Origin: Mactromeris polynyma | Taxonomy: Eukaryota; Mollusca; Bivalvia; Venerida; Mactridae | NCBI GenBank assembly: GCA_032209605.1 | Contig: JASFXZ010000001.1 | Location: 15,022,256 to 15,086,255 of the forward strand | Reading direction: 5' to 3' | Length of the DNA stretch: 64,000 nucleotides | Shown here: positions 6,261 through 64,000 of the stretch, in pieces | Position numbering within the stretch: the first letter of the stretch is position 1 | How the letters are laid out: each line of letters opens with the position of its first letter | Notes under the pieces: model-generated | Database searches by the model: none | What the model was told of the DNA's origin: nothing | Seen by the model: only the letters and a program-made list of their open reading frames with translations | Translations under genes and position numbers: made by a program

Positions 6261-6386
6261 CTATGGAAAAGGACCAAGGTGCTATGGAAAAGGACCAGGG
6301 TGCTATCGAAAGGTCATCGGGTGCAATGGAAAAGGAACAGGGTGCTATAGAGATTGGACATGGTGACATGGATAGGGATTGGGCGG
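6261..6386 (+). repeat. 21-nt minisatellite, six units
   Basis: Units like CTATGGAAAAGGACCAGGGTG repeat six times with increasing divergence. The frame stays open on both strands because 21 is a multiple of three (plus strand reads roughly MEKDQGA). No start context, splice sites or neighbouring exons suggest it is translated. Confidence 0.75.
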
Positions 6387-16395: not shown

Positions 16396-16778
16396 GACAT
16401 GTAACCATGACCAAAATAAAGTATTTGGTATTGTATTGTTTATACTGTTATTTAACGTCCTTCCTGCCGCTTCCGGTTATAAGTATTTCCAAAAACGAAC
16501 CACCTCATAAACAACACCGATTAACTAAAGAATGTTGCCGTGTAGGAGTTGCAGTTGTGTCCATGGGCGCAGCCATATTGAAATTGACGAAAATACGTAA
16601 TCGGAACGTCTTGGTGATCTACGCTCAAATAGAATTTACGGAGCTCGTAAATTCAATGTATACAGTATCTGTCAAAATTTTCAATACACAAGAGCCGACA
16701 CCGTTTACAGTTTTGGATTTATCGTAGATATGGTCTCGTTGCGCACGACTACGAAAATTATCGGTGTCATCTTTCTAC

Positions 16779-26250: not shown

Positions 26251-29200
26251 CTAAATGATTGACAAATCCATAAACATATGTTTCGTTAATTAGAAAGCGA
26301 CATACAAAAGAATAAGGATTTAGTGATTGCGATAAAGTCCATGCTAGGTTATACCATAGTCATGACTGGATTCGCTTTCACAATGGAATAACTTGATTGA
26401 TTGATTGATTGATTGATTATTAGACAACTGTTTGGTACGTTAAGCTTCAATGATAACGTCTCCTGCTTTATACTCCTCTCCTAGTTTTGAGGTATATATT
26501 GAGTCGTCATCTTCGTATTTTACATTAAACCATTGTGGAAATCCCGGCACCTGAGAAATTACATAACCATTGTACCACTTGTCTTCTTTATTTACTATCC
26601 ATTTATGACTTATTTTTTTCCTTACTAGTATATGTGAACGATCAGGTGGTGGTGTTACATATGCATTAGTTATTAATGAAAGGACATTAGATTTCAGTTC
26701 ATCAACACCTAAACTGACTCTATTTCCGTCAATTAATTTACTGAAAAGATACACATTAGGGATGCTCGCACAAGTTTGTTTAAAAACATTTTTTCTAAAA
26801 CGTAACTGGACTTTCAAAGCCTCTTCTTTTTCTGTTTTTGATTTTATTTTTTGTAATTCATCATCAACCTGTTGGGCATTTTGCCACAGACCATAAAATA
26901 ACATGTCATCAGTTTGAAGTTCTAATTTTTCTATCCTTTTTCTTTCAGTTTCTTCCTTTTTTCTGAAGTCATCTTGTTGCTTTTCTATTCTCTTTGCCAA
27001 AATGACACTTTCTCTCATTTTAAATATATTTCTTTCTTTCTTAACCCGAGACCTACTTTGTTTAATTATGCTTTCAAAATTTTCTTGATGTTCCAGCCAT
27101 TCAGAGGTTTTATTTAGGGAGAAGGATATTTGTGCCTCTAGGGCAAGAGTTTTAATGTTTGGTTTGGATGACAAAATATGATCAACATATGAGAACATTC
27201 TTTCAGGGAATTTGTTATGTTTATCAACACTTTGTGTTTCTACTACATTAATTTCTTCATGGTGTCCACCAGGAAGGTGATCAGCATACTGACGTTTAAG
27301 TAATTTGGAAAGGGCTGGTAATATAACAGAGAGTATCAAATATACATGATTGTCATAATCAGATTCATTGACAAGACTGTCATATATTTTGTCTTTTTTA
27401 ACTGGAACATCACTATATAAAATTAGATTTCCTTTCATGAATTCTTCTAAATTGTTCAAAACAGTGTCCAAAAATTCTACAAGCTGTAAATAACGTCCAT
27501 TCATTTGCGAAATGGAAATGTCCTTACTTTCTATTACTCTCCACAGTGGAGTAGTTAAAAATTTACACACAAGGCCTAATGCTTTACATCCAGCTAAAAA
27601 GAAAGGGACTTTCAAATCATGTAAAATACTCTTTTGTAGACCATTGACGACACTTGACTTTTCTAAAAATTCAATCATATTGGTGTGTAAAAAGTAAACA
27701 TGTCCAGCATTTGAAAACAGAATATTAAATCTGTTTCCTTTTAACGGTTGTAAAGGCAAAGCCAAAATGTTATTAACTTTCAGAAAGTCTTGTATAAAGA
27801 TTTTAAATGATAGGTGACAGCCATTTTTTTGGTCGCCGCGTCTTGCAAACGCTTTGCATGCAGAAAGGATCAGTCTAACTGTCCCTGGCTGTCCAGATTT
27901 TACAAATGTGGGGTTGTCAATTGGTATATTATTGTCAAAATGTTGCTTCTCAATTTCGTAAATAGTTTTCTGTGAAACATCGGCCATATGCACCAGGGTA
28001 TGTAAACCACAAAAAAAATTGTTCATCCTACTTATTGCTAACTGGGACTCTTCAGACATATCATTATAGTTTTGTACAATCTCGGGCAAAACACTTTCTC
28101 TGTATTCAGACAATAATCTATTAAATTTAGTCTCGGTTGCAGCTCTGTCACTCATTGTATTTTTTATATTGGTTAATAACTTTTTTCCACTTTCAGATTC
28201 ATTGGAACAAACATTTTCTATATCATATAAAATTTCCTTAAAAGTATCAAGTGTGTCACTAGAAGACTTGGTGGCCATATCTCTGAGTCCTAAAACCATA
28301 TAATTGCCCTCAGAATCCCGTGTTGCAAAAGCCCCCCACTTTGATCCGTATTTGGATGCTTCATCTGTATGAAGAGTAGTGTTCGAACTATTACATTGTT
28401 CCCCAACTTGAATTCGAGATATAATTCCTCTTTCTATAGACCAATTGTTTACAGTACTTGGAGAAGGAAGTTTATTAGGATTTTTGTTGCAAAGTTTTAG
28501 GACAGATCTAATAACATTACTTACATTTTGACATGACACTTGATTATCAAGTAAAGAATAAACACATGAATGTAAGGGGGCTACATATGTTTTACTCTGC
28601 TCATCAAACAGTTCCAAATTTTCAATTCTTTTAAGTTCAACATTTTCAAGTTTCAATTCATCATTTCCCTGTTTTAAATGTTTTATTTCATTATCTTTCA
28701 TAATTAAAATTTGCTTCAGTTCAAGTACTTCAGTTTTCAGTTGAGCCTGTCTGTCATTAACATCAAAATTATTATTGTCATCTAGTTTCATACATTTATC
28801 TCGCCAATAATTCTCGCGATTTGCCGAGCGTTTTAAAACCTTTTTTTGACTTTCAATTTTATGAACTTGTTTTTCAAAACTTTCATTTAACTGATCTTTT
28901 TCCTGTACTACAACATCCAAATGTTGTTCAATTTTTTCTTTTTCTGTTTGAGTACTGATAAGTTCCTCCCCAAGTTTCACAGCAACAGTTTTATATGTCT
29001 CAGCCATTAATTCAGGATTATCACCAGCAGCAAATAAACTCTTGTCACCAATTGTGACACTATCATTATTTTCATTTCCCATAGAAAATGTATCAGGTAC
29101 AGGAAATTCGTATGTTGCATTCAAAAATCTGTCAAGGTTTTCTTTTCCTTTTACACGAGTTTTACTCTTATTTAAATGTTGGTATTTTTGAAACACGCGT

Positions 29201-32200
29201 GATATATCTTTCTGCAATGTTTTGTATGACAATTTGGTTCTGAAGGTGGACAGCAAAAATGTGCATGTTTTGTCAATATTCCTACTTTTAATATAGTCAA
29301 TGATAGTATTGTTACTAAGAGGTTGAGATTCCATCATTAATATTGGTACTGATATTAATTATGGAACTATCCAGTGAAAAAGATAAAGATGAAAGAAGAC
29401 TGTACAGAGAGATAGTAAAGAGGACAAAAATATGACAAGTGTTACACAATACCTTATTTTAATGATAAAGAATACTTATGCAGAAATGATAAACATGTAT
29501 TTCATCATAAAAGTGTCCAGTGACAAGGGATGTTACCTTTAACACATAGCCAAGGAAAGAGATAAAGATGAAAGAAGACTGTACAGTGAGATAGTAAAGA
29601 GGACAAAAATATGACAAGTGTTACACAATACCTTATTTGATAAAGAATACTTATGCAGAAATGATAAACATGTATTTCATCATAAAAGTGTCCAGTGACA
29701 AGGGATGTTACCTTTAACACATAGCCAAGGAAAGAGATAAAGATGAAAGAAGACTGTACAGAGAGATAGTAAAGAGGACAAAAATATGACAAGTGTTACA
29801 CAATACCTTATTTGATAAAGAATACTTATGAAGAAATGAAAAACATATATTAAAATTTCATCATAAATTGTCCAGTGACAAGGGATCAGGATGTTATCTT
29901 TCAGTTTAACACAAATCTGGTGAAAAAGATAATGATGAAAGAAGACTGTATAGTAAATAGTAGAGAGGATAAAAATATGAAAGTAGAAGCAAGAGTGAAC
30001 TTTCAACTTGTTCTATGGTTTAGGGGGGGGTAGCAAAACGATTGCTTTAACCCTCTAAATTTGGTTGTTAATAGTTACTGATGAACAATCATAAGAATTA
30101 TTTTATACTAACTGTAGGAAACAATATGTTATAACTATATAAAACATGAATGACAATATCTATGTTCATTCACAATTACACAGTACTGAAAAAAAAATGA
30201 AACCGAAAGTAACAAATTTACATGGGATGGGTCAAACTGAAAATAACGTGGTATTAAAACGCCCGAGAACCTAATATTTATGAATTTCGTACATTCAAAC
30301 ACTAAAAGATAATTAAATATCACATAAAATGCATCGCAATTGAAACATACGTTATATTCTGGCGTTAATATTGCTAAATTTCGATTGTTTACATCGTCCG
30401 AATAATTCTACATGCGCACCGTTTCAAATTCGGATACACTTCCGGTAACGGTCCGGGAATACCCCAGTCTTGAATTAGACCTGCGCAAAAATATGCGCAG
30501 CGGTTTACAGTTATGACCTCGGCGTAGTTGGATGGAGAAATGTTTAAAATACACGAAAAACAAATAAAAACAATGCCGGGTCCCTAGATACAGTGACAAG
30601 ACATAAATTTAATACCACCTGACCGCTAATTATAGCTTTTTTGTGAGTTTTATACGAAATTTTCGTATTTTTTTTACTTCAAAAGATGCGCAGACACGTC
30701 GGCGCCTTTGATGATGCAATGTTTTCTCGTGATGCAACGTAATCGCGCGCGAACGAGAGATTATTTATGACGATGTTTTCCCGGAAAATGGCACGCGCGA
30801 AACCGAAAGTTAGATTTATGGACGTGAAATATTGGCTCGCATTACAAAATATGCATTTGCAAGTGCACTTATAAAATGATGTTAAGGAAGAAAATTATAT
30901 ATCCAGTAAGATTATTATCTATAAATTATCCGTACGCGTATTTTATCGATTGAAATCCGATTTGTATCACATTGATATTTGGCTGCAGGTAGAAGGTAAA
31001 TTCAAAATGGCGTCGAACGTTGCGGTCGCTACTTTGTATGCACGTAGAATGTTTATTTTGTAAACTGAATCGTGTATTCGAAAATTGACTTGGCACTATC
31101 GGCCCGTTAACATGGACGCGCTATGTTATTGAGGCTATTTTTAAACACAAATGCGAAGGCGGTTTTGTAGAATATGCAAATGAGACCAAATGGACCAATC
31201 AGAGAAGAAAATTGTCTTTCAAATGGTATGCGCCGATACGTCTTGCGTCTAAAAATAAGTGAGAAATCACTAGTCAAACTTACAGACCTTTCACACAAAA
31301 ATGAAATTTTATTTTGAAATCCGGCATACACCATCATTAAAATCAATTTCTACTCTTTAAAATGACATAAACGGCTAAAATCGGTTAGGAATTGACGATT
31401 GCATCTAAATTCTAAGTTGAGAGGTCACGCGGTTGACACAAATTTTCAGTAGACGCCATTTTGAAAAAAAACGTCGTTATCTAACGATAATGGAAACAAG
31501 AATCTTCTCGATGTTACAGCTCCTTATAGGTAATTATCGCTGATAAACTAACCCGTTTAAGTATATTTCCTTATTTAAATCGCATATTACTTCATCGATT
31601 GATTATTTATATGAAAAATAATGGGGATCTCGAGGTGACGAAATCGTCATAAATATTGGACTTACGACACATGAATTTGTTCATTGGTTCTCTTCTTCTC
31701 GATTTTTTAATGTAAATTATTTGTACGCAATTGTCTTTAAGAAACCCTTGAAGATGTAAGAATTCTAAATGAATGGCTATACTTCTTGAATTAGCTCATT
31801 GTTGCCAAAAATATTCGTATTGGGAGGCTCATTTTTCTCACGACGATCAAATGTGTCCATATTCCGGATATGGCGATTTCGGATAAAATATAATCAAACT
31901 CATTTGTGTACATATTTACGCAAAGCAGTACAATAATAAAGACATGATTTTAAGTAAAGTATCATTAGTATGGAATTTACCCACGTATGCTAAGTGTCAC
32001 TTACTTTAATGTCATTTTTAATATGGTTGGCTGATTGCACATATCTTTTTGTTTTTTAGTTTTTTATTTTGCTTCTAAAACTGATATAATTTCTACTTTT
32101 CTATTACATTACATAGCCTGGCATGCATATGGAGCTTCAATGATCAACATGCTGTCTGGCAGTGCAAGAAGAAATTCTCCAATTGATTGAGAATGGTTTT

Positions 32201-47140: not shown

Positions 47141-47975
47141 TTAACAATTGACGCAAAATTAATAAGTTTGAACTGAAACTAAATAAACATACAGTCCCCA
47201 AATTACAATATAGGTTGGATTTGTAGCAGAAACCAATGTTCTACTGAATTAAAACGGTTCAACGTATGCCGAGTGTAAAAACACATTGTTAAATACCGAC
47301 ATAAGGTGACGAAAATTATCCTTGAATATCCATTGAATATGAAAACTGGCTATCATAAGATTTTCATAGTTCGCATGTACAGAAACCTCAACAACGTCGG
47401 GTTTTTTGAATGCGAGAATAACAGCTGCGGTCTGTACTTAAATACAAAAATTCGTAAATGATGATTATATGATGTTTATGAATCATTGTAATACGTATAC
47501 TTATATAATAAACGTCCATACGTCTTAATGTAATTTAATAACAACTTAGGTATGTGAATGTAAGGTATTTCTATTCTGTGCCTACATACTGATAAATGTG
47601 TCTATTATTACGTTAACAACGTGAATGGACTCTATCATTTTAACTAGCATTCAGGAATTTAAAATGCAGTACCGAGCCTAACAATACACTAATTACTCTA
47701 CAGCTAACATGATGTCAACATTGTTGTGTTATGCAGCCGTCATTCATGTTTCGTGTACCTATTCATACTGCCCACATTTACAATATTTACCTCCCATTGT
47801 TCTGAATAGTCGGATATTTTGATATCGATTTTCTCAATTATCACATATTTGGGAATTACTCCTATAAGTCCTTATCAGTTATGCCTATCAAAATAGCTGA
47901 TGATTAAGAACAAGGGAGATAAATGTTGTAGATGTTGGAACTATATACTGAGCATCACTCAGTGGAAGCTAGAGG
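47141..47975 (-). other. 3' flank of secreted-protein gene copy 1
   Basis: Unique sequence just downstream of copy 1 in transcription direction. It is absent from the other copies, which are joined differently. No clear AATAAA close to the stop was found. Confidence 0.4.
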
Positions 47976-49908
47976 TCACACTGCTGCTACATCAAGTGTT
48001 TCTACTGCTGCTACATCAAGTGTTTCTACTGCTGCTACATCAAGTGTTTCTACTGCTGCTACATCAAGTGTTTCTACTGCTGCTACATCAAGTGTTTCTA
48101 CTGCTGCTACATCAAGTGTTTCTACTGCTGCTATATCAAGTGTTTCTACTGCTGCTACATCAAGTGTTTCTACTGCTGCTACATCAAGTGTTTCTACTGC
48201 TGCTACATCAAGTGTTTCTACTGCTGCTACATCAAGTGTTTCTACTGCTGCTACATCAAGTGTTTCTACTGCTGCTACATCAAGTGTTTCTACTGCTGCT
48301 ACATCAAGTGTTTCTACTGCTGCTACATCAAGTGTTTCTACTGCTGCTACATCAAGTGTTTCTACTGCTGCTACATCAAGTGTTTCTACTGCTGCTACAT
48401 CAAGTGTTTCTACTGCTGCTATATCAAGTCTTTCTACTGCTGCTACATCAAGTGTTGCTACTGCTGCTATATCAAGTGTTTCTACTGCTGCTACATCAAG
48501 TGTTTCTACTGCTACTATATCAAGTGTTTCTACTGCTACTATATCAAGTGTTTCTACTGCTGCTACATCAAGTGTTTCTACTGCTGCTACATCAAGTGTT
48601 TCTACTGCTACTATATCAAGTGTTTCCACTGCTGCTACATCAAGTGTTTCTACTGCTACTATATCAAGAGTTTCTACTGCTGCTACATCAAGTGTTTCTA
48701 CTGCTGCTATATCAAGTGTTTCTACTGCTGCTACATCAAGTGTTTCTACTGCTGCTATATCAAGTGTTTCTACTGCTGCTACATCAAGTGTTTCTACTGC
48801 TGCTACATCAAGTGTTTCTACTGCTGCTATATCAAGTGTTTCTACTGCTGCTATATCAAGTGTTTCTACTGCTGCTACATCAAGTGTTTCTACTGCTGCT
48901 ACATCAAGTGTTTCTACTGCTGCTACATCAAGTGTTTCTACTTCTGACCAGTGCATCTCAAACTTGTATGTTTGCGAGCAATTGAAGTACAACTGACACT
49001 CAAGTGTATGTGGATAAATTCCAGTATTGTCGGGCGAACACGGATCTTCAGCGCCAAACACAGTCTCGGCAACTGTGGAAAAAGAATGTATTAGGCCGAA
49101 ATTCATAACGTGTATATTTGCTGTCTCTCTACCGACCAAATAAGCAGCACCCCAATATAGTATTGGCTCACAACAGGTAATTAATACCTTTATTTAGTTT
49201 AATTTTGGTTGTAATTTCTAAGAGAATTCAAAATACAGTCGGACATCCTTCATTCGATTTTTTCGGGTCCGAAATTTTATTTCGACTAATACAATATTTC
49301 AAATAACCCATTGTAATTCGACGTGCCTTAGATACATCGGGACCTGGTATTTATTTCGGATTATACAAGTCTTCGGTTAAAAGTTTGTCGAATAAACGAG
49401 GTCCGACTGTATTTATTGACATAGGTGTGGATAAATGATTGAAAACTGTTTCGTTTATTGCGCCCAATATGCGTGTAGTTCCTTTATCATAAATAGTCGT
49501 CATACTTATAATTTATATTGTAATTGTTCATACTGTCATGTGTAACATGAATTTCGTCATTTAATAGAACTTGTAATGCTTCATTCGCCTACAATTTATA
49601 TAATATTTCGGACTTGAAACTTCAATGCTTTTAGTCCAAATGTTTATGGTATTAATGTAATCCAGTGCAAAATAAAAATGCATTTATAATCATTGAAACA
49701 CATATATTTACACAATGACATCATAGGATATCTATAACCCCATACACTTTACGCGAGACGCTGCTTCACAACAACGAACCAAACCACTATAACGATTGAC
49801 AGAGTATATTTATGAAAAGTACAACTCACGAATTACGGCAATCATGTGACTTGACAGCAACATTAGGCATGTCGCAAAAATCTTGCTGGAGATCGTCGAA
49901 GTTTTCAT
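47976..49908 (-). CDS. Secreted peritrophin-like protein with 40 VETLDVAA repeats, copy 1
   Basis: Exon 1 49908-49830, exon 2 49072-47976; 391 residues. Exon 1 begins MKTSTISSKIF and encodes a hydrophobic signal (to residue 26), ending at a GTGAGT donor in phase 1. Exon 2 follows a TTCTTTTTCCACAG acceptor and reads LAETVFGAEDPCSPDNTG. Cys38, Cys52 and Cys58 (spacing C-x13-C-x5-C) with GIYPHTLECQLYFNC match the first half of a type-2 chitin-binding (peritrophin-A, CBM14) domain. The second half, with three more Cys, is absent: residues 71-391 are forty octapeptides plus Val, then TGA. The repeat is acidic (two charges per eight residues). Role inferred: extracellular, perhaps matrix, mucus or shell associated. 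This copy alone has the long array and its own 3' flank, so it looks like the founder. Confidence 0.75.
47979..48945 (-). repeat. 24-nt minisatellite, 40 units, coding VETLDVAA
   Basis: On the minus strand the unit GTAGAAACACTTGATGTAGC + AGCA repeats 40 times in a row. Common variants change GTA to ATA (V to I) in the Asp-Val position and GCA to GTA; rare ones give VERLDI and VATLDV. As the unit is a multiple of three with no stops in the relevant frames, several frames on both strands are open. The minus frame is preferred because it continues a spliced, signal-peptide-bearing exon. Confidence 0.95.
49234..49411. repeat. MITE family 2 in the intron of every secreted gene copy
   Basis: TACAGTCGGACATCCTTCAT at the left and AACGAGGTCCGACTGTA at the right. 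It lies within the single intron (49073-49829) of copy 1 and at matching places in all later units (51118, 53002, 54886, 56746, 58630, 60514 and 62398 onward). The insertion therefore predates the array. Confidence 0.85.
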
Positions 49909-49998
49909 GTTGTTAAATGTAGCACTTGAACGTTAGAATTAAACGTAACCTTGCACAAAACCACGACGTGGTATGACGTGTTTAGAATGTGATTGGGT

Positions 49999-50005
49999 CT
50001 TTTAT
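49999..50005 (-). promoter_or_regulatory. TATA-like box of secreted gene (repeated in every unit)
   Basis: ATAAAAG on the minus strand, about 91 nt before the ATG of copy 1. A start site 25-30 nt downstream would leave a 5' UTR of roughly 65 nt. The same sequence recurs at the same offset from each exon 1 (for example 51883-51889). Motif-based only. Confidence 0.4.
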
Positions 50006-50110
50006 CAGACTCTGAAACGGCGAAGATGATTGAGTGGTCAAGGCTGGTGTGTAGCTTGCTTTTAATAAACTTGATATCAAATGAAAACCCCTTTCGTTAG
50101 TGTATTTGCG

Positions 50111-50116
50111 TTTATT
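50111..50116 (-). terminator. Candidate polyadenylation signal AATAAA for copies 2-8
   Basis: AATAAA on the minus strand about 400 nt after the stop of copy 2 and about 200 nt before the start codon of copy 1. The same signal follows each short copy at 1,884-bp spacing, so each unit could be a separate transcription unit. Confidence 0.4.
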
Positions 50117-50323
50117 TTTCGTCGCCACCGGTTTCCCAAATGGGCGATGCCTCCGGAAGAATGCTAGTCATTTTTTTAGAATTTTGGAGGATAGTGCATG
50201 ATACAAAAGATGCCCCAGTTTCAGAAGCACCCCTTGTTCAATTAGGTGCCCAGTGTAAAGCATCGTACACGGGACCTCGGTTTTTCATAGTCTCGTCCGA
50301 AAGACTGTTAGTACTGTCAGTAG

Positions 50324-50392
50324 TGGAGCGGAAGATCGAACCTGTGATCCCTGAATTACTAGTTCAGCGCATTACCACTGGACCACGGATCC
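50324..50392 (-). repeat. tRNA-like sequence (Thr-AGT-like anticodon arm), one per unit
   Basis: The minus strand reads GGATCCG, box A-like TGGTCCAGTGGTAATGC, an anticodon arm CTGAA-CTAGTAA-TTCAG (anticodon AGT) and box B-like GGTTCGATC. The anticodon stem pairs perfectly, but the acceptor stem has two mismatches and the T stem barely pairs, so it is a tRNA relic or SINE head rather than a working tRNA. Repeated at 52208, 54092, 55976, 57836, 59720, 61604 and 63488. It falls in the 3' region of each short gene copy. Confidence 0.55.
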
Positions 50393-50516
50393 GCTACAAA
50401 CCTCATTCTTGATCCGAACATATATTTATAAGTAGCCCCGACATGCCTTAGGAATAACGGAGTGACCTAATTTAACGGCATTGAAGCCAATGTCGATAAA
50501 CTACGTTATCAAATAC

Positions 50517-51792
50517 CTAAAGGAATCGAATAAATACTGCTACTATATCAAGAGTTTCTACTGCTGCTACATCAAGTGTTTCTACTGCTGCTATATCAAG
50601 TGTTTCTACTGCTGCTACATCAAGTGTTTCTACTGCTGCTATATCAAGTGTTTCTACTGCTGCTACATCAAGTGTTTCTACTGCTGCTACATCAAGTGTT
50701 TCTACTGCTGCTATATCAAGTGTTTCTACTGCTGCTATATCAAGTGTTTCTACTGCTGCTACATCAAGTGTTTCTACTGCTGCTACATCAAGTGTTTCTA
50801 CTGCTGTTACATCAAGTGTTTCTACTTCTGACCAGTGCATCTCAAACTTGTATGTTTGCGAGCAATTGAAGTGCAACTGACACTCAAGTGTATGTGGATA
50901 AATTCCAGTATTGTCGGGCGAACACGGATCTTCAGCGCCAAACACAGTCTCGGCAACTGTGGAAAAAGAATGTATTAGGCCGAAATTCATAACGTGTATA
51001 TTTGCTGTCTCTCTACCGACCAAATAAGCAGCACCCCAATATAGTATTGGCTCACAACAGGTAATTAATACCTTTATTTAGTTTAATTTTGGTTGTAATT
51101 TCTAAGAGAATTCAAAATACAGTCGGACATCCTTCATTCGATTTTTTCGGGTCCGAAATTTTATTTCGACTAATACAATATTTCAAATAACCCATTGTAA
51201 TTCGACGTGCCTTAGATACATCGGGACCTGGTATTTATTTCGGATTATACAAGTCTTCGGTTAAAAGTTTGTCGAATAAACGAGGTCCGACTGTATTTAT
51301 TGACATAGGTGTGGATAAATGATTGAAAACTGTTTCGTTTATTGCGCCCAATATGCGTGTAGTTCCTTTATCATAAATAGTCGTCATACTTATAATTTAT
51401 ATTGTAATTGTTCATACTGTCATGTGTAACATGAATTTCGTCATTTAATAGAACTTGTAATGCTTCATTCGCCTACAATTTATATAATATTTCGGACTTG
51501 AAACTTCAATGCTTTTAGTCCAAATGTTTATGGTATTAATGTAATCCAGTGCAAAATAAAAATGCATTTATAATCATTGAAACACATATATTTACACAAT
51601 GACATCATAGGATATCTATAACCCCATACACTTTACGCGAGACGCTGCTTCACAACAACGAACCAAACCACTATAACGATTGACAGAGTATATTTATGAA
51701 AAGTACAACTCACGAATTACGGCAATCATGTGACTTGACAGCAACATTAGGCATGTCGCAAAAATCTTGCTGGAGATCGTCGAAGTTTTCAT
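50517..51792 (-). CDS. Secreted peritrophin-like repeat protein, copy 2
   Basis: Exon 1 51792-51714, exon 2 50956-50517; 172 residues. Signal peptide and three-Cys half-domain as in copy 1, but only 12 octapeptides, then VFIRFL and TAG. The tail comes from sequence beyond the duplication junction at 50536/50537. Two differences from copy 1: Tyr55 is His (ECQLHFNC) and the first repeat reads VETLDVTA. Copy 3 shares both. A potential AATAAA lies about 400 nt after the stop (50116-50111). Confidence 0.72.
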
Positions 51793-52400
51793 GTTGTTAA
51801 ATGTAGCACTTGAACGTTAGAATTAAACGTAACCTTGCACAAAACCACGACGTGGTATGACGTGTTTAGAATGTGATTGGGTCTTTTATCAGACTCTGAA
51901 ACGGCGAAGATGATTGAGTGGTCAAGGCTGGTGTGTAGCTTGCTTTTAATAAACTTGATATCAAATGAAAACCCCTTTCGTTAGTGTATTTGCGTTTATT
52001 TTTCGTCGCCACCGGTTTCCCAAATGGGCGATGCCTCCGGAAGAATGCTAGTCATTTTTTTAGAATTTTGGAGGATAGTGCATGATACAAAAGATGCCCC
52101 AGTTTCAGAAGCACCCCTTGTTCAATTAGGTGCCCAGTGTAAAGCATCGTACACGGGACCTCGGTTTTTCATAGTCTCGTCCGAAAGACTGTTAGTACTG
52201 TCAGTAGTGGAGCGGAAGATCGAACCTGTGATCCCTGAATTACTAGTTCAGCGCATTACCACTGGACCACGGATCCGCTACAAACCTCATTCTTGATCCG
52301 AACATATATTTATAAGTAGCCCCGACATGCCTTAGGAATAACGGAGTGACCTAATTTAACGGCATTGAAGCCAATGTCGATAAACTACGTTATCAAATAC

Positions 52401-53676
52401 CTAAAGGAATCGAATAAATACTGCTACTATATCAAGAGTTTCTACTGCTGCTACATCAAGTGTTTCTACTGCTGCTATATCAAGTGTTTCTACTGCTGCT
52501 ACATCAAGTGTTTCTACTGCTGCTATATCAAGTGTTTCTACTGCTGCTACATCAAGTGTTTCTACTGCTGCTACATCAAGTGTTTCTACTGCTGCTATAT
52601 CAAGTGTTTCTACTGCTGCTATATCAAGTGTTTCTACTGCTGCTACATCAAGTGTTTCTACTGCTGCTACATCAAGTGTTTCTACTGCTGTTACATCAAG
52701 TGTTTCTACTTCTGACCAGTGCATCTCAAACTTGTATGTTTGCGAGCAATTGAAGTGCAACTGACACTCAAGTGTATGTGGATAAATTCCAGTATTGTCG
52801 GGCGAACACGGATCTTCAGCGCCAAACACAGTCTCGGCAACTGTGGAAAAAGAATGTATTAGGCCGAAATTCATAACGTGTATATTTGCTGTCTCTCTAC
52901 CGACCAAATAAGCAGCACCCCAATATAGTATTGGCTCACAACAGGTAATTAATACCTTTATTTAGTTTAATTTTGGTTGTAATTTCTAAGAGAATTCAAA
53001 ATACAGTCGGACATCCTTCATTCGATTTTTTCGGGTCCGAAATTTTATTTCGACTAATACAATATTTCAAATAACCCATTGTAATTCGACGTGCCTTAGA
53101 TACATCGGGACCTGGTATTTATTTCGGATTATACAAGTCTTCGGTTAAAAGTTTGTCGAATAAACGAGGTCCGACTGTATTTATTGACATAGGTGTGGAT
53201 AAATGATTGAAAACTGTTTCGTTTATTGCGCCCAATATGCGTGTAGTTCCTTTATCATAAATAGTCGTCATACTTATAATTTATATTGTAATTGTTCATA
53301 CTGTCATGTGTAACATGAATTTCGTCATTTAATAGAACTTGTAATGCTTCATTCGCCTACAATTTATATAATATTTCGGACTTGAAACTTCAATGCTTTT
53401 AGTCCAAATGTTTATGGTATTAATGTAATCCAGTGCAAAATAAAAATGCATTTATAATCATTGAAACACATATATTTACACAATGACATCATAGGATATC
53501 TATAACCCCATACACTTTACGCGAGACGCTGCTTCACAACAACGAACCAAACCACTATAACGATTGACAGAGTATATTTATGAAAAGTACAACTCACGAA
53601 TTACGGCAATCATGTGACTTGACAGCAACATTAGGCATGTCGCAAAAATCTTGCTGGAGATCGTCGAAGTTTTCAT
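52401..53676 (-). CDS. Secreted peritrophin-like repeat protein, copy 3
   Basis: Exon 1 53676-53598, exon 2 52840-52401; 172 residues. Coding sequence appears identical to copy 2, including His55 and VETLDVTA, so copies 2 and 3 are probably the product of one recent unit duplication or of gene conversion. Confidence 0.72.
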
Positions 53677-54284
53677 GTTGTTAAATGTAGCACTTGAACG
53701 TTAGAATTAAACGTAACCTTGCACAAAACCACGACGTGGTATGACGTGTTTAGAATGTGATTGGGTCTTTTATCAGACTCTGAAACGGCGAAGATGATTG
53801 AGTGGTCAAGGCTGGTGTGTAGCTTGCTTTTAATAAACTTGATATCAAATGAAAACCCCTTTCGTTAGTGTATTTGCGTTTATTTTTCGTCGCCACCGGT
53901 TTCCCAAATGGGCGATGCCTCCGGAAGAATGCTAGTCATTTTTTTAGAATTTTGGAGGATAGTGCATGATACAAAAGATGCCCCAGTTTCAGAAGCACCC
54001 CTTGTTCAATTAGGTGCCCAGTGTAAAGCATCGTACACGGGACCTCGGTTTTTCATAGTCTCGTCCGAAAGACTGTTAGTACTGTCAGTAGTGGAGCGGA
54101 AGATCGAACCTGTGATCCCTGAATTACTAGTTCAGCGCATTACCACTGGACCACGGATCCGCTACAAACCTCATTCTTGATCCGAACATATATTTATAAG
54201 TAGCCCCGACATGCCTTAGGAATAACGGAGTGACCTAATTTAACGGCATTGAAGCCAATGTCGATAAACTACGTTATCAAATAC

Positions 54285-55560
54285 CTAAAGGAATCGAATA
54301 AATACTGCTACTATATCAAGAGTTTCTACTGCTGCTACATCAAGTGTTTCTACTGCTGCTATATCAAGTGTTTCTACTGCTGCTACATCAAGTGTTTCTA
54401 CTGCTGCTATATCAAGTGTTTCTACTGCTGCTACATCAAGTGTTTCTACTGCTGCTACATCAAGTGTTTCTACTGCTGCTATATCAAGTGATTCTACTGC
54501 TGCTATATCAAGTGTTTCTACTGCTGCTACATCAAGTGTTTCTACTGCTGCTACATCAAGTGTTTCTACTGCTGCTACATCAAGTGTTTCTACTTCTGAC
54601 CAGTGCATCTCAAACTTGTATGTTTGCGAGCAATTGAAGTACAACTGACACTCAAGTGTATGTGGATAAATTCCAGTATTGTCGGGCGAACACGGATCTT
54701 CAGCGCCAAACACAGTCTCGGCAACTGTGGAAAAAGAATGTATTAGGCCGAAATTCATAACGTGTATATTTGCTGTCTCTCTACCGACCAAATAAGCAGC
54801 ACCCCAATATAGTATTGGCTCACAACAGGTAATTAATACCTTTATTTAGTTTAATTTTGGTTGTAATTTCTAAGAGAATTCAAAATACAGTCGGACATCC
54901 TTCATTCGATTTTTTCGGGTCCGAAATTTTATTTCGACTAATACAATATTTCAAATAACCCATTGTAATTCGACGTGCCTTAGATACATCGGGACCTGGT
55001 ATTTATTTCGGATTATACAAGTCTTCGGTTAAAAGTTTGTCGAATAAACGAGGTCCGACTGTATTTATTGACATAGGTGTGGATAAATGATTGAAAACTG
55101 TTTCGTTTATTGCGCCCAATATGCGTGTAGTTCCTTTATCATAAATAGTCGTCATACTTATAATTTATATTGTAATTGTTCATACTGTCATGTGTAACAT
55201 GAATTTCGTCATTTAATAGAACTTGTAATGCTTCATTCGCCTACAATTTATATAATATTTCGGACTTGAAACTTCAATGCTTTTAGTCCAAATGTTTATG
55301 GTATTAATGTAATCCAGTGCAAAATAAAAATGCATTTATAATCATTGAAACACATATATTTACACAATGACATCATAGGATATCTATAACCCCATACACT
55401 TTACGCGAGACGCTGCTTCACAACAACGAACCAAACCACTATAACGATTGACAGAGTATATTTATGAAAAGTACAACTCACGAATTACGGCAATCATGTG
55501 ACTTGACAGCAACATTAGGCATGTCGCAAAAATCTTGCTGGAGATCGTCGAAGTTTTCAT
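54285..55560 (-). CDS. Secreted peritrophin-like repeat protein, copy 4
   Basis: Exon 1 55560-55482, exon 2 54724-54285; 172 residues. It has Tyr55 and VETLDVAA like copy 1, with one private change: the fifth repeat reads VESLDIAA (an A in place of T on the plus strand near 54491). Splice sites and tail as in copy 2. Confidence 0.72.
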
Positions 55561-56168
55561 GTTGTTAAATGTAGCACTTGAACGTTAGAATTAAACGTAA
55601 CCTTGCACAAAACCACGACGTGGTATGACGTGTTTAGAATGTGATTGGGTCTTTTATCAGACTCTGAAACGGCGAAGATGATTGAGTGGTCAAGGCTGGT
55701 GTGTAGCTTGCTTTTAATAAACTTGATATCAAATGAAAACCCCTTTCGTTAGTGTATTTGCGTTTATTTTTCGTCGCCACCGGTTTCCCAAATGGGCGAT
55801 GCCTCCGGAAGAATGCTAGTCATTTTTTTAGAATTTTGGAGGATAGTGCATGATACAAAAGATGCCCCAGTTTCAGAAGCACCCCTTGTTCAATTAGGTG
55901 CCCAGTGTAAAGCATCGTACACGGGACCTCGGTTTTTCATAGTCTCGTCCGAAAGACTGTTAGTACTGTCAGTAGTGGAGCGGAAGATCGAACCTGTGAT
56001 CCCTGAATTACTAGTTCAGCGCATTACCACTGGACCACGGATCCGCTACAAACCTCATTCTTGATCCGAACATATATTTATAAGTAGCCCCGACATGCCT
56101 TAGGAATAACGGAGTGACCTAATTTAACGGCATTGAAGCCAATGTCGATAAACTACGTTATCAAATAC

Positions 56169-57420
56169 CTAAAGGAATCGAATAAATACTGCTACTATAT
56201 CAAGAGTTTCTACTGCTGCTACATCAAGTGTTTCTACTGCTGCTATATCAAGTGTTTCTACTGCTGCTACATCAAGTGTTTCTACTGCTGCTATATCAAG
56301 TGTTTCTACTGCTGCTACATCAAGTGTTTCTACTGCTGCTATATCAAGTGTTTCTACTGCTGCTATATCAAGTGTTTCTACTGCTGCTACATCAAGTGTT
56401 TCTACTGCTGCTACATCAAGTGTTTCTACTGCTGCTACATCAAGTGTTTCTACTTCTGACCAGTGCATCTCAAACTTGTATGTTTGCGAGCAATTGAAGT
56501 ACAACTGACACTCAAGTGTATGTGGATAAATTCCAGTATTGTCGGGCGAACACGGATCTTCAGCGCCAAACACAGTCTCGGCAACTGTGGAAAAAGAATG
56601 TATTAGGCCGAAATTCATAACGTGTATATTTGCTGTCTCTCTACCGACCAAATAAGCAGCACCCCAATATAGTATTGGCTCACAACAGGTAATTAATACC
56701 TTTATTTAGTTTAATTTTGGTTGTAATTTCTAAGAGAATTCAAAATACAGTCGGACATCCTTCATTCGATTTTTTCGGGTCCGAAATTTTATTTCGACTA
56801 ATACAATATTTCAAATAACCCATTGTAATTCGACGTGCCTTAGATACATCGGGACCTGGTATTTATTTCGGATTATACAAGTCTTCGGTTAAAAGTTTGT
56901 CGAATAAACGAGGTCCGACTGTATTTATTGACATAGGTGTGGATAAATGATTGAAAACTGTTTCGTTTATTGCGCCCAATATGCGTGTAGTTCCTTTATC
57001 ATAAATAGTCGTCATACTTATAATTTATATTGTAATTGTTCATACTGTCATGTGTAACATGAATTTCGTCATTTAATAGAACTTGTAATGCTTCATTCGC
57101 CTACAATTTATATAATATTTCGGACTTGAAACTTCAATGCTTTTAGTCCAAATGTTTATGGTATTAATGTAATCCAGTGCAAAATAAAAATGCATTTATA
57201 ATCATTGAAACACATATATTTACACAATGACATCATAGGATATCTATAACCCCATACACTTTACGCGAGACGCTGCTTCACAACAACGAACCAAACCACT
57301 ATAACGATTGACAGAGTATATTTATGAAAAGTACAACTCACGAATTACGGCAATCATGTGACTTGACAGCAACATTAGGCATGTCGCAAAAATCTTGCTG
57401 GAGATCGTCGAAGTTTTCAT
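56169..57420 (-). CDS. Secreted peritrophin-like repeat protein, copy 5 (11 repeats)
   Basis: Exon 1 57420-57342, exon 2 56584-56169; 164 residues. One octapeptide (a VETLDVAA) has been lost, which accounts exactly for the 1,860-bp unit. The loss keeps the frame, as expected from slippage or unequal exchange within the 24-nt array. Confidence 0.72.
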
Positions 57421-58028
57421 GTTGTTAAATGTAGCACTTGAACGTTAGAATTAAACGTAACCTTGCACAAAACCACGACGTGGTATGACGTGTTTAGAAT
57501 GTGATTGGGTCTTTTATCAGACTCTGAAACGGCGAAGATGATTGAGTGGTCAAGGCTGGTGTGTAGCTTGCTTTTAATAAACTTGATATCAAATGAAAAC
57601 CCCTTTCGTTAGTGTATTTGCGTTTATTTTTCGTCGCCACCGGTTTCCCAAATGGGCGATGCCTCCGGAAGAATGCTAGTCATTTTTTTAGAATTTTGGA
57701 GGATAGTGCATGATACAAAAGATGCCCCAGTTTCAGAAGCACCCCTTGTTCAATTAGGTGCCCAGTGTAAAGCATCGTACACGGGACCTCGGTTTTTCAT
57801 AGTCTCGTCCGAAAGACTGTTAGTACTGTCAGTAGTGGAGCGGAAGATCGAACCTGTGATCCCTGAATTACTAGTTCAGCGCATTACCACTGGACCACGG
57901 ATCCGCTACAAACCTCATTCTTGATCCGAACATATATTTATAAGTAGCCCCGACATGCCTTAGGAATAACGGAGTGACCTAATTTAACGGCATTGAAGCC
58001 AATGTCGATAAACTACGTTATCAAATAC

Positions 58029-59304
58029 CTAAAGGAATCGAATAAATACTGCTACTATATCAAGAGTTTCTACTGCTGCTACATCAAGTGTTTCTACTGC
58101 TGCTATATCAAGTGTTTCTACTGCTGCTACATCAAGTGTTTCTACTGCTGCTATATCAAGTGTTTCTACTGCTGCTACATCAAGTGTTTCTACTGCTGCT
58201 ACATCAAGTGTTTCTACTGCTGCTATATCAAGTGTTTCTACTGCTGCAATATCAAGTGTTTCTACTGCTGCTACATCAAGTGTTTCTACTGCTGCTACAT
58301 CAAGTGTTTCTACTGCTGCTACATCAAGTGTTTCTACTTCTGACCAGTGCATCTCAAACTTGTATGTTTGCGAGCAATTGAAGTACAACTGACACTCAAG
58401 TGTATGTGGATAAATTCCAGTATTGTCGGGCGAACACGGATCTTCAGCGCCAAACACAGTCTCGGCAACTGTGGAAAAAGAATGTATTAGGCCGAAATTC
58501 ATAACGTGTATATTTGCTGTCTCTCTACCGACCAAATAAGCAGCACCCCAATATAGTATTGGCTCACAACAGGTAATTAATACCTTTATTTAGTTTAATT
58601 TTGGTTGTAATTTCTAAGAGAATTCAAAATACAGTCGGACATCCTTCATTCGATTTTTTCGGGTCCGAAATTTTATTTCGACTAATACAATATTTCAAAT
58701 AACCCATTGTAATTCGACGTGCCTTAGATACATCGGGACCTGGTATTTATTTCGGATTATACAAGTCTTCGGTTAAAAGTTTGTCGAATAAACGAGGTCC
58801 GACTGTATTTATTGACATAGGTGTGGATAAATGATTGAAAACTGTTTCGTTTATTGCGCCCAATATGCGTGTAGTTCCTTTATCATAAATAGTCGTCATA
58901 CTTATAATTTATATTGTAATTGTTCATACTGTCATGTGTAACATGAATTTCGTCATTTAATAGAACTTGTAATGCTTCATTCGCCTACAATTTATATAAT
59001 ATTTCGGACTTGAAACTTCAATGCTTTTAGTCCAAATGTTTATGGTATTAATGTAATCCAGTGCAAAATAAAAATGCATTTATAATCATTGAAACACATA
59101 TATTTACACAATGACATCATAGGATATCTATAACCCCATACACTTTACGCGAGACGCTGCTTCACAACAACGAACCAAACCACTATAACGATTGACAGAG
59201 TATATTTATGAAAAGTACAACTCACGAATTACGGCAATCATGTGACTTGACAGCAACATTAGGCATGTCGCAAAAATCTTGCTGGAGATCGTCGAAGTTT
59301 TCAT
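58029..59304 (-). CDS. Secreted peritrophin-like repeat protein, copy 6
   Basis: Exon 1 59304-59226, exon 2 58468-58029; 172 residues, predicted protein as in copy 8. It carries a synonymous Ile codon change (ATA to ATT) in the fourth repeat, shared with copies 7 and 9 but not 8. Confidence 0.72.
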
Positions 59305-59912
59305 GTTGTTAAATGTAGCACTTGAACGTTAGAATTAAACGTAACCTTGCACAAAACCACGACGTGGTATGACGTGTTTAGAATGTGATTGGGTCTTTTA
59401 TCAGACTCTGAAACGGCGAAGATGATTGAGTGGTCAAGGCTGGTGTGTAGCTTGCTTTTAATAAACTTGATATCAAATGAAAACCCCTTTCGTTAGTGTA
59501 TTTGCGTTTATTTTTCGTCGCCACCGGTTTCCCAAATGGGCGATGCCTCCGGAAGAATGCTAGTCATTTTTTTAGAATTTTGGAGGATAGTGCATGATAC
59601 AAAAGATGCCCCAGTTTCAGAAGCACCCCTTGTTCAATTAGGTGCCCAGTGTAAAGCATCGTACACGGGACCTCGGTTTTTCATAGTCTCGTCCGAAAGA
59701 CTGTTAGTACTGTCAGTAGTGGAGCGGAAGATCGAACCTGTGATCCCTGAATTACTAGTTCAGCGCATTACCACTGGACCACGGATCCGCTACAAACCTC
59801 ATTCTTGATCCGAACATATATTTATAAGTAGCCCCGACATGCCTTAGGAATAACGGAGTGACCTAATTTAACGGCATTGAAGCCAATGTCGATAAACTAC
59901 GTTATCAAATAC

Positions 59913-61188
59913 CTAAAGGAATCGAATAAATACTGCTACTATATCAAGAGTTTCTACTGCTGCTACATCAAGTGTTTCTACTGCTGCTATATCAAGTGTT
60001 TCTACTGCTGCTACATCAAGTGTTTCTACTGCTGCTATATCAAGTGTTTCTACTGCTGCTACATCAAGTGTTTCTACTGCTGCTACATCAAGTGTTTCTA
60101 CTGCTGCTATATCAAGTGTTTCTACTGCTGCAATATCAAGTGTTTCTACTGCTGCTACATCAAGTGTTTCTACTGCTGCTACATCAAGTGTTTCTACTGC
60201 TGCTACATCAAGTGTTTCTACTTCTGACCAGTGCATCTCAAACTTGTATGTTTGCGAGCAATTGAAGTACAACTGACACTCAAGTGTATGTGGATAAATT
60301 CCAGTATTGTCGGGCGAACACGGATCTTCAGCGCCAAACACAGTCTCGGCAACTGTGGAAAAAGAATGTATTAGGCCGAAATTCATAACGTGTATATTTG
60401 CTGTCTCTCTACCGACCAAATAAGCAGCACCCCAATATAGTATTGGCTCACAACAGGTAATTAATACCTTTATTTAGTTTAATTTTGGTTGTAATTTCTA
60501 AGAGAATTCAAAATACAGTCGGACATCCTTTATTCGATTTTTTCGGGTCCGAAATTTTATTTCGACTAATACAATATTTCAAATAACCCATTGTAATTCG
60601 ACGTGCCTTAGATACATCGGGACCTGGTATTTATTTCGGATTATACAAGTCTTCGGTTAAAAGTTTGTCGAATAAACGAGGTCCGACTGTATTTATTGAC
60701 ATAGGTGTGGATAAATGATTGAAAACTGTTTCGTTTATTGCGCCCAATATGCGTGTAGTTCCTTTATCATAAATAGTCGTCATACTTATAATTTATATTG
60801 TAATTGTTCATACTGTCATGTGTAACATGAATTTCGTCATTTAATAGAACTTGTAATGCTTCATTCGCCTACAATTTATATAATATTTCGGACTTGAAAC
60901 TTCAATGCTTTTAGTCCAAATGTTTATGGTATTAATGTAATCCAGTGCAAAATAAAAATGCATTTATAATCATTGAAACACATATATTTACACAATGACA
61001 TCATAGGATATCTATAACCCCATACACTTTACGCGAGACGCTGCTTCACAACAACGAACCAAACCACTATAACGATTGACAGAGTATATTTATGAAAAGT
61101 ACAACTCACGAATTACGGCAATCATGTGACTTGACAGCAACATTAGGCATGTCGCAAAAATCTTGCTGGAGATCGTCGAAGTTTTCAT
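59913..61188 (-). CDS. Secreted peritrophin-like repeat protein, copy 7
   Basis: Exon 1 61188-61110, exon 2 60352-59913; 172 residues. It shares the synonymous fourth-repeat change with copies 6 and 9. A private C-to-T lies at 60531 in the intronic MITE. Confidence 0.72.
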
Positions 61189-61796
61189 GTTGTTAAATGT
61201 AGCACTTGAACGTTAGAATTAAACGTAACCTTGCACAAAACCACGACGTGGTATGACGTGTTTAGAATGTGATTGGGTCTTTTATCAGACTCTGAAACGG
61301 CGAAGATGATTGAGTGGTCAAGGCTGGTGTGTAGCTTGCTTTTAATAAACTTGATATCAAATGAAAACCCCTTTCGTTAGTGTATTTGCGTTTATTTTTC
61401 GTCGCCACCGGTTTCCCAAATGGGCGATGCCTCCGGAAGAATGCTAGTCATTTTTTTAGAATTTTGGAGGATAGTGCATGATACAAAAGATGCCCCAGTT
61501 TCAGAAGCACCCCTTGTTCAATTAGGTGCCCAGTGTAAAGCATCGTACACGGGACCTCGGTTTTTCATAGTCTCGTCCGAAAGACTGTTAGTACTGTCAG
61601 TAGTGGAGCGGAAGATCGAACCTGTGATCCCTGAATTACTAGTTCAGCGCATTACCACTGGACCACGGATCCGCTACAAACCTCATTCTTGATCCGAACA
61701 TATATTTATAAGTAGCCCCGACATGCCTTAGGAATAACGGAGTGACCTAATTTAACGGCATTGAAGCCAATGTCGATAAACTACGTTATCAAATAC

Positions 61797-63072
61797 CTAA
61801 AGGAATCGAATAAATACTGCTACTATATCAAGAGTTTCTACTGCTGCTACATCAAGTGTTTCTACTGCTGCTATATCAAGTGTTTCTACTGCTGCTACAT
61901 CAAGTGTTTCTACTGCTGCTATATCAAGTGTTTCTACTGCTGCTACATCAAGTGTTTCTACTGCTGCTACATCAAGTGTTTCTACTGCTGCTATATCAAG
62001 TGTTTCTACTGCTGCTATATCAAGTGTTTCTACTGCTGCTACATCAAGTGTTTCTACTGCTGCTACATCAAGTGTTTCTACTGCTGCTACATCAAGTGTT
62101 TCTACTTCTGACCAGTGCATCTCAAACTTGTATGTTTGCGAGCAATTGAAGTACAACTGACACTCAAGTGTATGTGGATAAATTCCAGTATTGTCGGGCG
62201 AACACGGATCTTCAGCGCCAAACACAGTCTCGGCAACTGTGGAAAAAGAATGTATTAGGCCGAAATTCATAACGTGTATATTTGCTGTCTCTCTACCGAC
62301 CAAATAAGCAGCACCCCAATATAGTATTGGCTCACAACAGGTAATTAATACCTTTATTTAGTTTAATTTTGGTTGTAATTTCTAAGAGAATTCAAAATAC
62401 AGTCGGACATCCTTCATTCGATTTTTTAGGGTCCGAAATTTTATTTCGACTAATACAATATTTCAAATAACCCATTGTAATTCGACGTGCCTTAGATACA
62501 TCGGGACCTGGTATTTATTTCGGATTATACAAGTCTTCGGTTAAAAGTTTGTCGAATAAACGAGGTCCGACTGTATTTATTGACATAGGTGTGGATAAAT
62601 GATTGAAAACTGTTTCGTTTATTGCGCCCAATATGCGTGTAGTTCCTTTATCATAAATAGTCGTCATACTTATAATTTATATTGTAATTGTTCATACTGT
62701 CATGTGTAACATGAATTTCGTCATTTAATAGAACTTGTAATGCTTCATTCGCCTACAATTTATATAATATTTCGGACTTGAAACTTCAATGCTTTTAGTC
62801 CAAATGTTTATGGTATTAATGTAATTCAGTGCAAAATAAAAATGCATTTATAATCATTGAAACACATATATTTACACAATGACATCATAGGATATCTATA
62901 ACCCCATACACTTTACGCGAGACGCTGCTTCACAACAACGAACCAAACCACTATAACGATTGACAGAGTATATTTATGAAAAGTACAACTCACGAATTAC
63001 GGCAATCATGTGACTTGACAGCAACATTAGGCATGTCGCAAAAATCTTGCTGGAGATCGTCGAAGTTTTCAT
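61797..63072 (-). CDS. Secreted peritrophin-like repeat protein, copy 8
   Basis: Exon 1 63072-62994, exon 2 62236-61797; 172 residues. It lacks the synonymous change of copies 6, 7 and 9. Two private intronic substitutions: A at 62428 and T at 62826. Confidence 0.72.
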
Positions 63073-63680
63073 GTTGTTAAATGTAGCACTTGAACGTTAG
63101 AATTAAACGTAACCTTGCACAAAACCACGACGTGGTATGACGTGTTTAGAATGTGATTGGGTCTTTTATCAGACTCTGAAACGGCGAAGATGATTGAGTG
63201 GTCAAGGCTGGTGTGTAGCTTGCTTTTAATAAACTTGATATCAAATGAAAACCCCTTTCGTTAGTGTATTTGCGTTTATTTTTCGTCGCCACCGGTTTCC
63301 CAAATGGGCGATGCCTCCGGAAGAATGCTAGTCATTTTTTTAGAATTTTGGAGGATAGTGCATGATACAAAAGATGCCCCAGTTTCAGAAGCACCCCTTG
63401 TTCAATTAGGTGCCCAGTGTAAAGCATCGTACACGGGACCTCGGTTTTTCATAGTCTCGTCCGAAAGACTGTTAGTACTGTCAGTAGTGGAGCGGAAGAT
63501 CGAACCTGTGATCCCTGAATTACTAGTTCAGCGCATTACCACTGGACCACGGATCCGCTACAAACCTCATTCTTGATCCGAACATATATTTATAAGTAGC
63601 CCCGACATGCCTTAGGAATAACGGAGTGACCTAATTTAACGGCATTGAAGCCAATGTCGATAAACTACGTTATCAAATAC

Positions 63681-64000
63681 CTAAAGGAATCGAATAAATA
63701 CTGCTACTATATCAAGAGTTTCTACTGCTGCTACATCAAGTGTTTCTACTGCTGCTATATCAAGTGTTTCTACTGCTGCTACATCAAGTGTTTCTACTGC
63801 TGCTATATCAAGTGTTTCTACTGCTGCTACATCAAGTGTTTCTACTGCTGCTACATCAAGTGTTTCTACTGCTGCTATATCAAGTGTTTCTACTGCTGCA
63901 ATATCAAGTGTTTCTACTGCTGCTACATCAAGTGTTTCTACTGCTGCTACATCAAGTGTTTCTACTGCTGCTACATCAAGTGTTTCTACTTCTGACCAGT
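63681..64000 (-). CDS. Secreted peritrophin-like repeat protein, copy 9 (cut by window end)
   Basis: Only the 3' part of exon 2 is in the window: 12 octapeptides, the VFIRFL tail and stop. It carries the same synonymous ATT codon as copies 6 and 7. Exon 1 and the chitin-binding half-domain should lie just beyond 64000. Confidence 0.65.
   Translation of the reverse strand, partial: WSEVETLDVAAVETLDVAAVETLDVAAVETLDIAAVETLDIAAVETLDVAAVETLDVAAVETLDIAAVETLDVAAVETLDIAAVETLDVAAVETLDIVAVFIRFL

Follow-up and report, generated by a model that had tools for sequence, protein, structure and literature searches.

We analysed a 64,000-nucleotide stretch of the genome of the bivalve Mactromeris polynyma (C1:15022256-15086255 of a 792.8-Mb assembly; hereafter the window, with positions counted from its first letter), in which an array of closely similar genes starts at position 47976 and runs past the window end. 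The array consists of 28 gene copies lying head to tail on the minus strand over ~53 kb, from C1:15070231 to ~C1:15123608. Judging from its structure and from two dispersed paralogs, we consider it likely, with a probability of roughly 0.8, that this array is a young chimeric gene derived from the gene of a secreted CBM14 (peritrophin-A) protein.

Layout of the array and its genes

A genome search with the start region found 30 copies, comprising the 28 on C1 and two dispersed paralogs on contigs C246 and C267. A preliminary description, made from the window sequence, had proposed a tandem array of at least nine near-identical genes in 1,884-bp units. Both points were confirmed, the true number being 28 and one in-window unit having 1,860 bp. 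Complete units are 99.4-100% identical to a reference unit, and the window holds eight complete gene models (genes 0 to 7) and the 3' part of a ninth (Table 1). The head-to-tail units, a common junction between them and unique flanks at both edges mark this as a tandem gene array.

In each unit, an exon 1 of 79 nt, which carries a signal-type peptide assigned by eye, is followed by an intron of 757 nt and then by exon 2, where half of a CBM14 domain precedes a 24-bp repeat translating as the octapeptide VETLDVAA. The intron has a GTGAGT donor at the border with exon 1, a TTTTTCCACAG acceptor and phase 1. These splice sites and their phase, the minus-strand signal-type exon, the splice coordinates 49830/49072 and the octapeptide had all been described correctly. 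The claim of near-identical copies holds for the units but not for all genes, since there are two kinds. At the 3' array edge, gene 0 encodes 391 aa with 40 octapeptides and a net charge of -79 across its 322-residue acidic tail, whereas the other 27 genes have 12 octapeptides (25 genes) or 11 (two genes) and lengths of 172, 171 or 164 aa. Genes 1-27 share a fortuitous C-terminus, ...VAVFIRFL, and end in VFIRFL and a stop because the frame enters the upstream flank of the next unit. The frame is open in 28/28 array copies; genes 24 and 25 carry one polypyrimidine-tract change and one 3-bp deletion in exon 1. Most likely, the genes would yield a secreted acidic protein of ~145 residues that keeps three of the six cysteines of CBM14.

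The junction where the upstream flank meets the 24-bp array recurs at 52420, 54304, 56188 (there after 11 repeat units), 58048, 59932, 61816 and 63700. Its sequence is identical across the eight in-window junctions, and the exact string is found 27 times in the whole array. The downstream flank of gene 0 is 94.7% identical to C267 over the first 150 bp and matches C246 in blocks of 79 and 83%, while the upstream flank of gene 27 is 93.4% identical to C267 over 610 bp and 80.4% to C246 over 465 bp. Given that the flanks match the paralogs at both edges, both edges can be regarded as ancestral. Together with the common junction, this points to tandem duplication of a segment reaching from 627 bp upstream of the ATG through the 12th repeat. 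Each copy carries its own 627 bp of upstream sequence, and so probably has a promoter there.

Descent from a CBM14 gene

The exon 1/exon 2 layout is common to the array genes and both paralogs. The C246 paralog (locus L015) has a signal exon and then a complete CBM14 exon with six cysteines, and lacks a repeat array. In the C267 paralog (locus L014), ~42 copies of the 24-bp unit, with frameshifts among them, lie behind a CBM14 exon that is likewise complete. This minisatellite, at 5940-6990 of L014, shows ~7 frameshifting insertion or deletion (indel) events and would be intronic if the neighbouring splice site is used.

Pfam CBM_14 (PF01607) matched 53/53 positions in both paralogs at 23.4 and 22.7 bits, just over the curated cut-off of 22.1 bits. 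In the array the profile matched positions 1-28 of 53 and stayed below this cut-off (13.4, 15.0 and 17.2 bits for 172-, 87- and 43-aa queries), without a whole-profile match. A family hidden Markov model (HMM) trained on 13 CBM14 exons of the genome, including both paralogs, recovered the array copies at E-values of 6e-10 to 2e-8, calculated on a small set of open reading frames (ORFs). Compared with C267, the array genes lack 135 bp, a length divisible by 3, between the ...W-S of the domain and the first repeat; the same stretch is also aligned at C246. With this deletion, cysteines 4-6 and the 5' splice site were lost, and the repeat came to follow the half-domain in frame.

The family HMM and the colinearity with the paralogs both indicate descent from a CBM14 exon. 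On this comparison, the half-domain is a CBM14 exon minus its second half and not a new domain, and with that half gone chitin binding by the array protein has probably been lost. The chitin-binding half-domain of the preliminary description thus stands as CBM14-derived, while its profile match falls under the Pfam cut-off. The idea that the combination forms a family of its own kind was not borne out, as the half-domain is CBM14 after a 135-bp deletion and the repeat appears to be former noncoding sequence. Set beside the CBM14/peritrophin-A (ChtBD2) family, whose full domain is found in the paralogs, the array is kin by its origin, yet it fails the defining features of the family, namely the cut-off (28/53 profile positions) and the six cysteines (3/6 kept).

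CBM14 domains are frequent in this genome, with at least 128 PF01607 matches at E <= 0.01 from 150 scored of 257 candidates. When the C246 domain was searched against the genome, 80 matches reached E <= 1. Thirty of these are C246, C267 and the 28 array copies; the other 50 lie mostly on C224 and C157, and two of them have an internal stop. Dense runs of CBM14 exons were observed at C224:9.542-9.620 Mb and C157:2.842-2.873 Mb, on the plus strand throughout on each contig. The eight exons examined from these runs have phase-1 borders, and the runs may represent numerous small genes or, alternatively, a single giant multi-CBM14 gene or a few such genes. Within window positions 1-47976, the family HMM found no further CBM14 exon (next best E 0.31, all sources).

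For the splice sites, 12 of the 50 further family exons were taken and the 11 with the searched cysteine pattern were counted, leaving out L054, which matches the family HMM without that pattern. In all 13 exons (these 11 and the two paralogs), a seventh Cys codon lies ~ten residues after the sixth and is TGT, never TGC, and the last two bases of that codon form a GT compatible with a phase-1 5' splice site. The donor there is GTAAGT in nine of the 11 other exons, GTACGG and GTATGT in one each, and GTACGT in both paralogs. An AG fitting a phase-1 acceptor was likewise found 14-35 nt before the domain in 13/13, at exactly 14 nt in eight exons from C224 and C157. Most likely, the CBM14 domain is encoded by one phase 1-1 exon. 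The 24-mer lies 3' of the conserved splice site and is therefore probably intron sequence by origin. C246 has one degenerate copy of it, between flanks common with C267. Our first reading of this copy as 3' untranslated region (UTR) after a stop was changed to intron by the splice sites of the other CBM14 exons, with the caveat of a TAG codon, given below.

We propose four steps for the origin of the array. The parent, reconstructed from the paralogs and the 11 other exons, would have had a signal-peptide exon followed by a CBM14 exon bounded by phase-1 introns. A 24-bp stretch behind the CBM14 exon, probably in the next intron, would have expanded to a minisatellite in one lineage, the states being one degenerate copy at C246, ~42 at C267 and 40 at the array edge. 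In the C1 lineage, the observed 135-bp in-frame deletion would then have removed the second half of CBM14 and the 5' splice site. With that site lost, the minisatellite would have been read in the mRNA from the half-domain onward, as (VETLDVAA)n. Finally, tandem duplication of the segment outlined above, with breakpoints visible at the junctions, would have produced 3'-truncated copies, which unequal exchange may have amplified.

Weighing the reading against its rivals

Several observations weigh against the array as a young chimeric gene with a repeat of intronic origin. The GTACGT donor of C246 and C267 is weaker than the GTAAGT of the family, and C246 has an in-frame TAG directly behind the putative splice site. 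If its exon ends at this TAG, the 24-mer might be former 3' UTR, which is noncoding either way. Half of the GT is fixed by the Cys codon, L055 and L056 are near-identical, the sample covers 12 of ~50 further family exons, and no third exon was found for the paralogs. The degenerate 24-mer of C246 could also be a collapsed array and not the ancestral state. Its seed match was equalled by 17 of 5000 shuffles, and scores of 19-21, equal or higher, were reached in four of 12 other family loci of ~1.4 kb; the argument from this 24-mer consequently rests on its position between shared flanks. As for selection, dN/dS (the ratio of nonsynonymous to synonymous rates) was 0.57 for the array against C267 (bootstrap 0.20-2.30) and 0.84 against C246 (bootstrap 0.40-2.09), with no sign of purifying selection. 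Substitutions per site are alike in the coding sequence (CDS), with 6 in 519 sites, and outside it, with 15 in 1365. The 200 bp before the ATG differ by 16.5% from C246, no better conserved than other alignable flanks (17-21%), while the intron differs by 31%. Special conservation of these 200 bp had been considered and was dropped, as the outer flank, which holds no gene of the array, is as similar and the 31% of the intron includes poorly alignable inserts; this makes the functional reading slightly less likely.

The copies differ by ~0.1%, with 21 substitutions in 28 units and a mean of 1.97 differences per 1884 sites among the 22 equal-length units; seven columns varying by gap placement alone in genes 4 and 9 were excluded from the substitution count. 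Three of the six CDS substitutions change an amino acid, two are silent and one lies beside a 3-bp deletion. The indels comprise three single-base events, all non-CDS, and one 3-bp and one 24-bp deletion in the CDS. Among random CDS changes, 2.9% give a stop, and the probability of no stop in six such changes is 0.84. With so little divergence and stops so rare by chance, intact frames are weak evidence. The earlier claim that eight complete copies have no disabling mutation is therefore true, and extends to all 28, but argues little for coding. The 24-bp unit also leaves four of its six frames open, so an open frame through the repeat is no evidence of coding. No selection was detectable from dN/dS (0.69 for C267 against C246, bootstrap 0.38-1.33) or from CDS versus non-CDS variation within the array. 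There is one hint of frame keeping: no indel was seen in the ~39 repeats of gene 0, where ~2 would be expected (chance ~0.1, calculated by hand), against ~7 events in ~42 repeats at C267. The caveat is that gene 0 has the more uniform repeats, without the A-runs that favour slippage at C267.

The array may be a neutral amplification or a nascent gene comparable to fish antifreeze glycoprotein (AFGP), and on present evidence the neutral array is the likelier. We give nearly even odds to a neutral macrosatellite, in which a gene fragment and its upstream region were amplified by unequal exchange, the frames being open through youth and the product functionless. The small number of differences, the lack of a substitution excess outside the CDS, the chance values for stops and for all three single-base indels falling outside the CDS (P = 0.38), and the broken domain all fit this explanation; the 28 open frames, the multiple-of-3 length of both multi-base CDS indels (3 bp, and 24 bp or one repeat unit) and the indel-free repeats of gene 0 speak against it. 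Less likely is a functional nascent gene selected for dosage, supplying an acidic secreted repeat protein in quantity, for example for matrix or mucus; the preliminary description had suggested dosage selection of this kind, with shell, byssus, mucus or defence as possible settings. Its signal exon, donor, acceptor and upstream region are preserved in the copies, its tail is acidic, and similar routes with known function, those of AFGP, AFPIII and Sdic, are described in PMC3449122. Yet neither dN/dS nor within-array variation signals selection, the domain is broken, the upstream region shows no special conservation, and copy number alone does not prove selection. More doubtful again is the birth, within a mollusc, of a new secreted acidic repeat protein whose repeat came from an intronic minisatellite and whose signal peptide was already there, with selection for quantity driving its gene to 28 copies. 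If true, this would parallel, in an invertebrate, the antifreeze glycoprotein route, and its intermediates (single-copy unit, intronic array, fusion and amplified array) would persist in one genome.

Two further explanations concern the data and the strand. Assembly expansion of one or few real copies is an unlikely source of the array, to which we give little credence. While the very high identity would agree with it, as would the 16 of 27 units (genes 0-26) that fall into six identical groups, the largest of six, the same 27 units include 17 distinct sequences, 11 of them unique. The 28 units show 21 substitutions but three single-base indels, and scattered copies share variants (genes 4 and 9; 6, 19 and 21), a pattern expected from unequal exchange between real units; the flanks at both array edges are homologous to paralog flanks. 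A plus-strand gene, for a mucin-like, Ser/Thr-rich (STAATSSV)n ORF of 354 aa, is hardly credible. Its frame is open at 47932-48996, where all three plus frames are open through the repeat, but no signal sequence was seen by eye, and it is the minus-strand model that fits the exon structure and domain of the paralogs.

Features of the window and comparison with known systems

Table 1. Features of the array within the window, by position.
Feature	Position	Strand	Remark
Gene 0 exon 2 (CBM14 exon, 5' half; 40 x 24 bp follow, up to stop at array end)	47976..49072	-	Both paralogs have a homologous 3' flank
Gene 0 intron 1, 757 bp, phase 1	49073..49829	-	4.4% divergence from C267 paralog
MITE-like element in intron 1, terminal inverted repeats CAGTCGGAC..., flanking TA	49236..49409	.	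Relatives at 4640-6269
Gene 0 exon 1, signal-type peptide, GTGAGT donor	49830..49908	-	Counterpart in L014 and L015
Proximal upstream region, in every unit; presumed promoter	49909..50110	-	16.5% divergence from C246 paralog
SINE-like insert in spacer, tRNA-like head ~50328-50404	50160..50405	-	Sequence and paralog alignment
Gene 1 (exon 2 50517-50956, exon 1 51714-51792); 172 aa; Y55H, A77T	50517..51792	-	
Duplication junction (upstream flank meets 24-bp array after 12 units; array start 50536)	50535..50536	.	String found 27 times in the array
Gene 2 (exon 2 52401-52840, exon 1 53598-53676); Y55H, A77T as gene 1	52401..53676	-	
Gene 3 (exon 2 54285-54724, exon 1 55482-55560); T105S	54285..55560	-	
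Gene 4 (exon 2 56169-56584, exon 1 57342-57420); 164 aa, minus one 24-bp unit	56169..57420	-	
Gene 5 (exon 2 58029-58468, exon 1 59226-59304)	58029..59304	-	
Gene 6 (exon 2 59913-60352, exon 1 61110-61188)	59913..61188	-	
Gene 7 (exon 2 61797-62236, exon 1 62994-63072)	61797..63072	-	
Gene 8, 3' part only in window	63681..64000	-	Genes 9-27 beyond, to ~C1:15123608

Each unit carries two inserts that resemble mobile elements. The one in intron 1, which we take to be a miniature inverted-repeat transposable element (MITE), has relatives of 73-80% identity in both orientations at 4640-6269. The spacer insert, presumably akin to a short interspersed nuclear element (SINE), gave no ARAGORN or Rfam match; it is present in C267 and has no clear counterpart in the C246 paralog. 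The tRNA and Rfam scans of the window as a whole also returned no match.

Outside the array, the minus strand has an intact single-frame ORF of 972 aa at 26440-29358, whose C-terminal part matches Spin/Ssty (PF02513, E 5.6e-8). It had 37 homologs among 8000 scored candidates. Those with a name come from Mya, which gave the best named score, Mercenaria, Dreissena, Saccostrea, Mytilus, Magallana and the sea urchin Diadema, and one homolog is filed under a Sedimenticola bacterial bin. The ORF is flanked by 178-bp and 175-bp tandem repeats, and its region is possibly a mobile element; no long, well-matched terminal inverted repeats were found there. Long palindrome-like inverted repeats were observed at 16123-16396 and 24214-24369, each matching its own reverse complement, at 77% and 84% identity respectively.

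Protein database searches for the half-domain gave one candidate and no match for residues 1-75 of the 172-aa form, and 7439 candidates, none at E <= 10, for residues 1-100 of the 391-aa form; as both queries held the half-domain and not the full C246 domain, this does not demonstrate a lack of homologs elsewhere. An IMG/VR scan gave eight pattern matches, none confirmed, and a PDB sequence search gave chance-level matches only (E 0.76 and above). Weak Pfam matches of the repeat to phage-protein families were taken as repeat artefacts. For exon 2 of gene 1, single-sequence AlphaFold2 returned a low-confidence model (mean predicted local distance difference test score, pLDDT, 53), in which the half-domain (residues 1-40) scored below 50 and the repeat was modelled as strands with block means of 53-66.

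The literature search found no description of the array and no VETLDVAA string, with most subscription papers outside its reach. The origin of repetitive secreted proteins can often not be traced. In this case, the parent gene, an apparent single-copy state of the repeat, an expanded noncoding state and the amplified fusion occur together in one genome. With all stages present, each step (repeat growth, splice-site loss, partial duplication and amplification) can be dated and expression can be tested. The array also cautions against reading function from open frames, which say little in a young homogeneous array or a 24-bp repeat.

By its route of origin, the array resembles the AFGP genes of notothenioid fish, which lie in tandem arrays. 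In these fish, AFGP arose from trypsinogen, whose core was lost while a 9-bp sequence at an intron-exon border was amplified (Chen et al. 1997, as reported in PMC3449122, the source also for the next two systems). In both cases, the 5' part of a secreted-protein gene survives while the core is lost, and amplification of a short sequence yields a coding repeat. In the array, the signal peptide of the parent is kept (exon 1 has counterparts at C246 and C267, with the signal assigned by eye), the 24-mer lies behind a putative splice site or the C246 stop, in noncoding parent sequence, and the 135-bp deletion took half the domain, not all of it. The differences are that the 24-nt unit was probably wholly intronic, whereas the 9 nt of AFGP straddle the intron-exon border, that the array retains part of the old domain, that genes 1-27 lack the ancestral 3' end, and that the array is known from sequence alone.

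The AFPIII cluster of the Antarctic eelpout, derived from sialic acid synthase, has more than 30 tandem repeats and is likewise formed by a partial duplicate in tandem repeats of one gene each (PMC3449122). Its functional part is the old C-terminal exon and its signal exon is new, whereas the array combines an old signal exon with a new C-terminal part. Sdic of Drosophila melanogaster, a testis-specific gene in ~10 tandem copies, is also chimeric with internal deletions, but it came from two adjacent genes (PMC3449122), whereas the array would have come from one gene and its own noncoding sequence. Finally, the C1q-domain gene expansions of bivalves (PMC6835236) share with the array the tandem duplication of secreted-protein genes, and differ in that the domain of the array is truncated and a new tail has been added.

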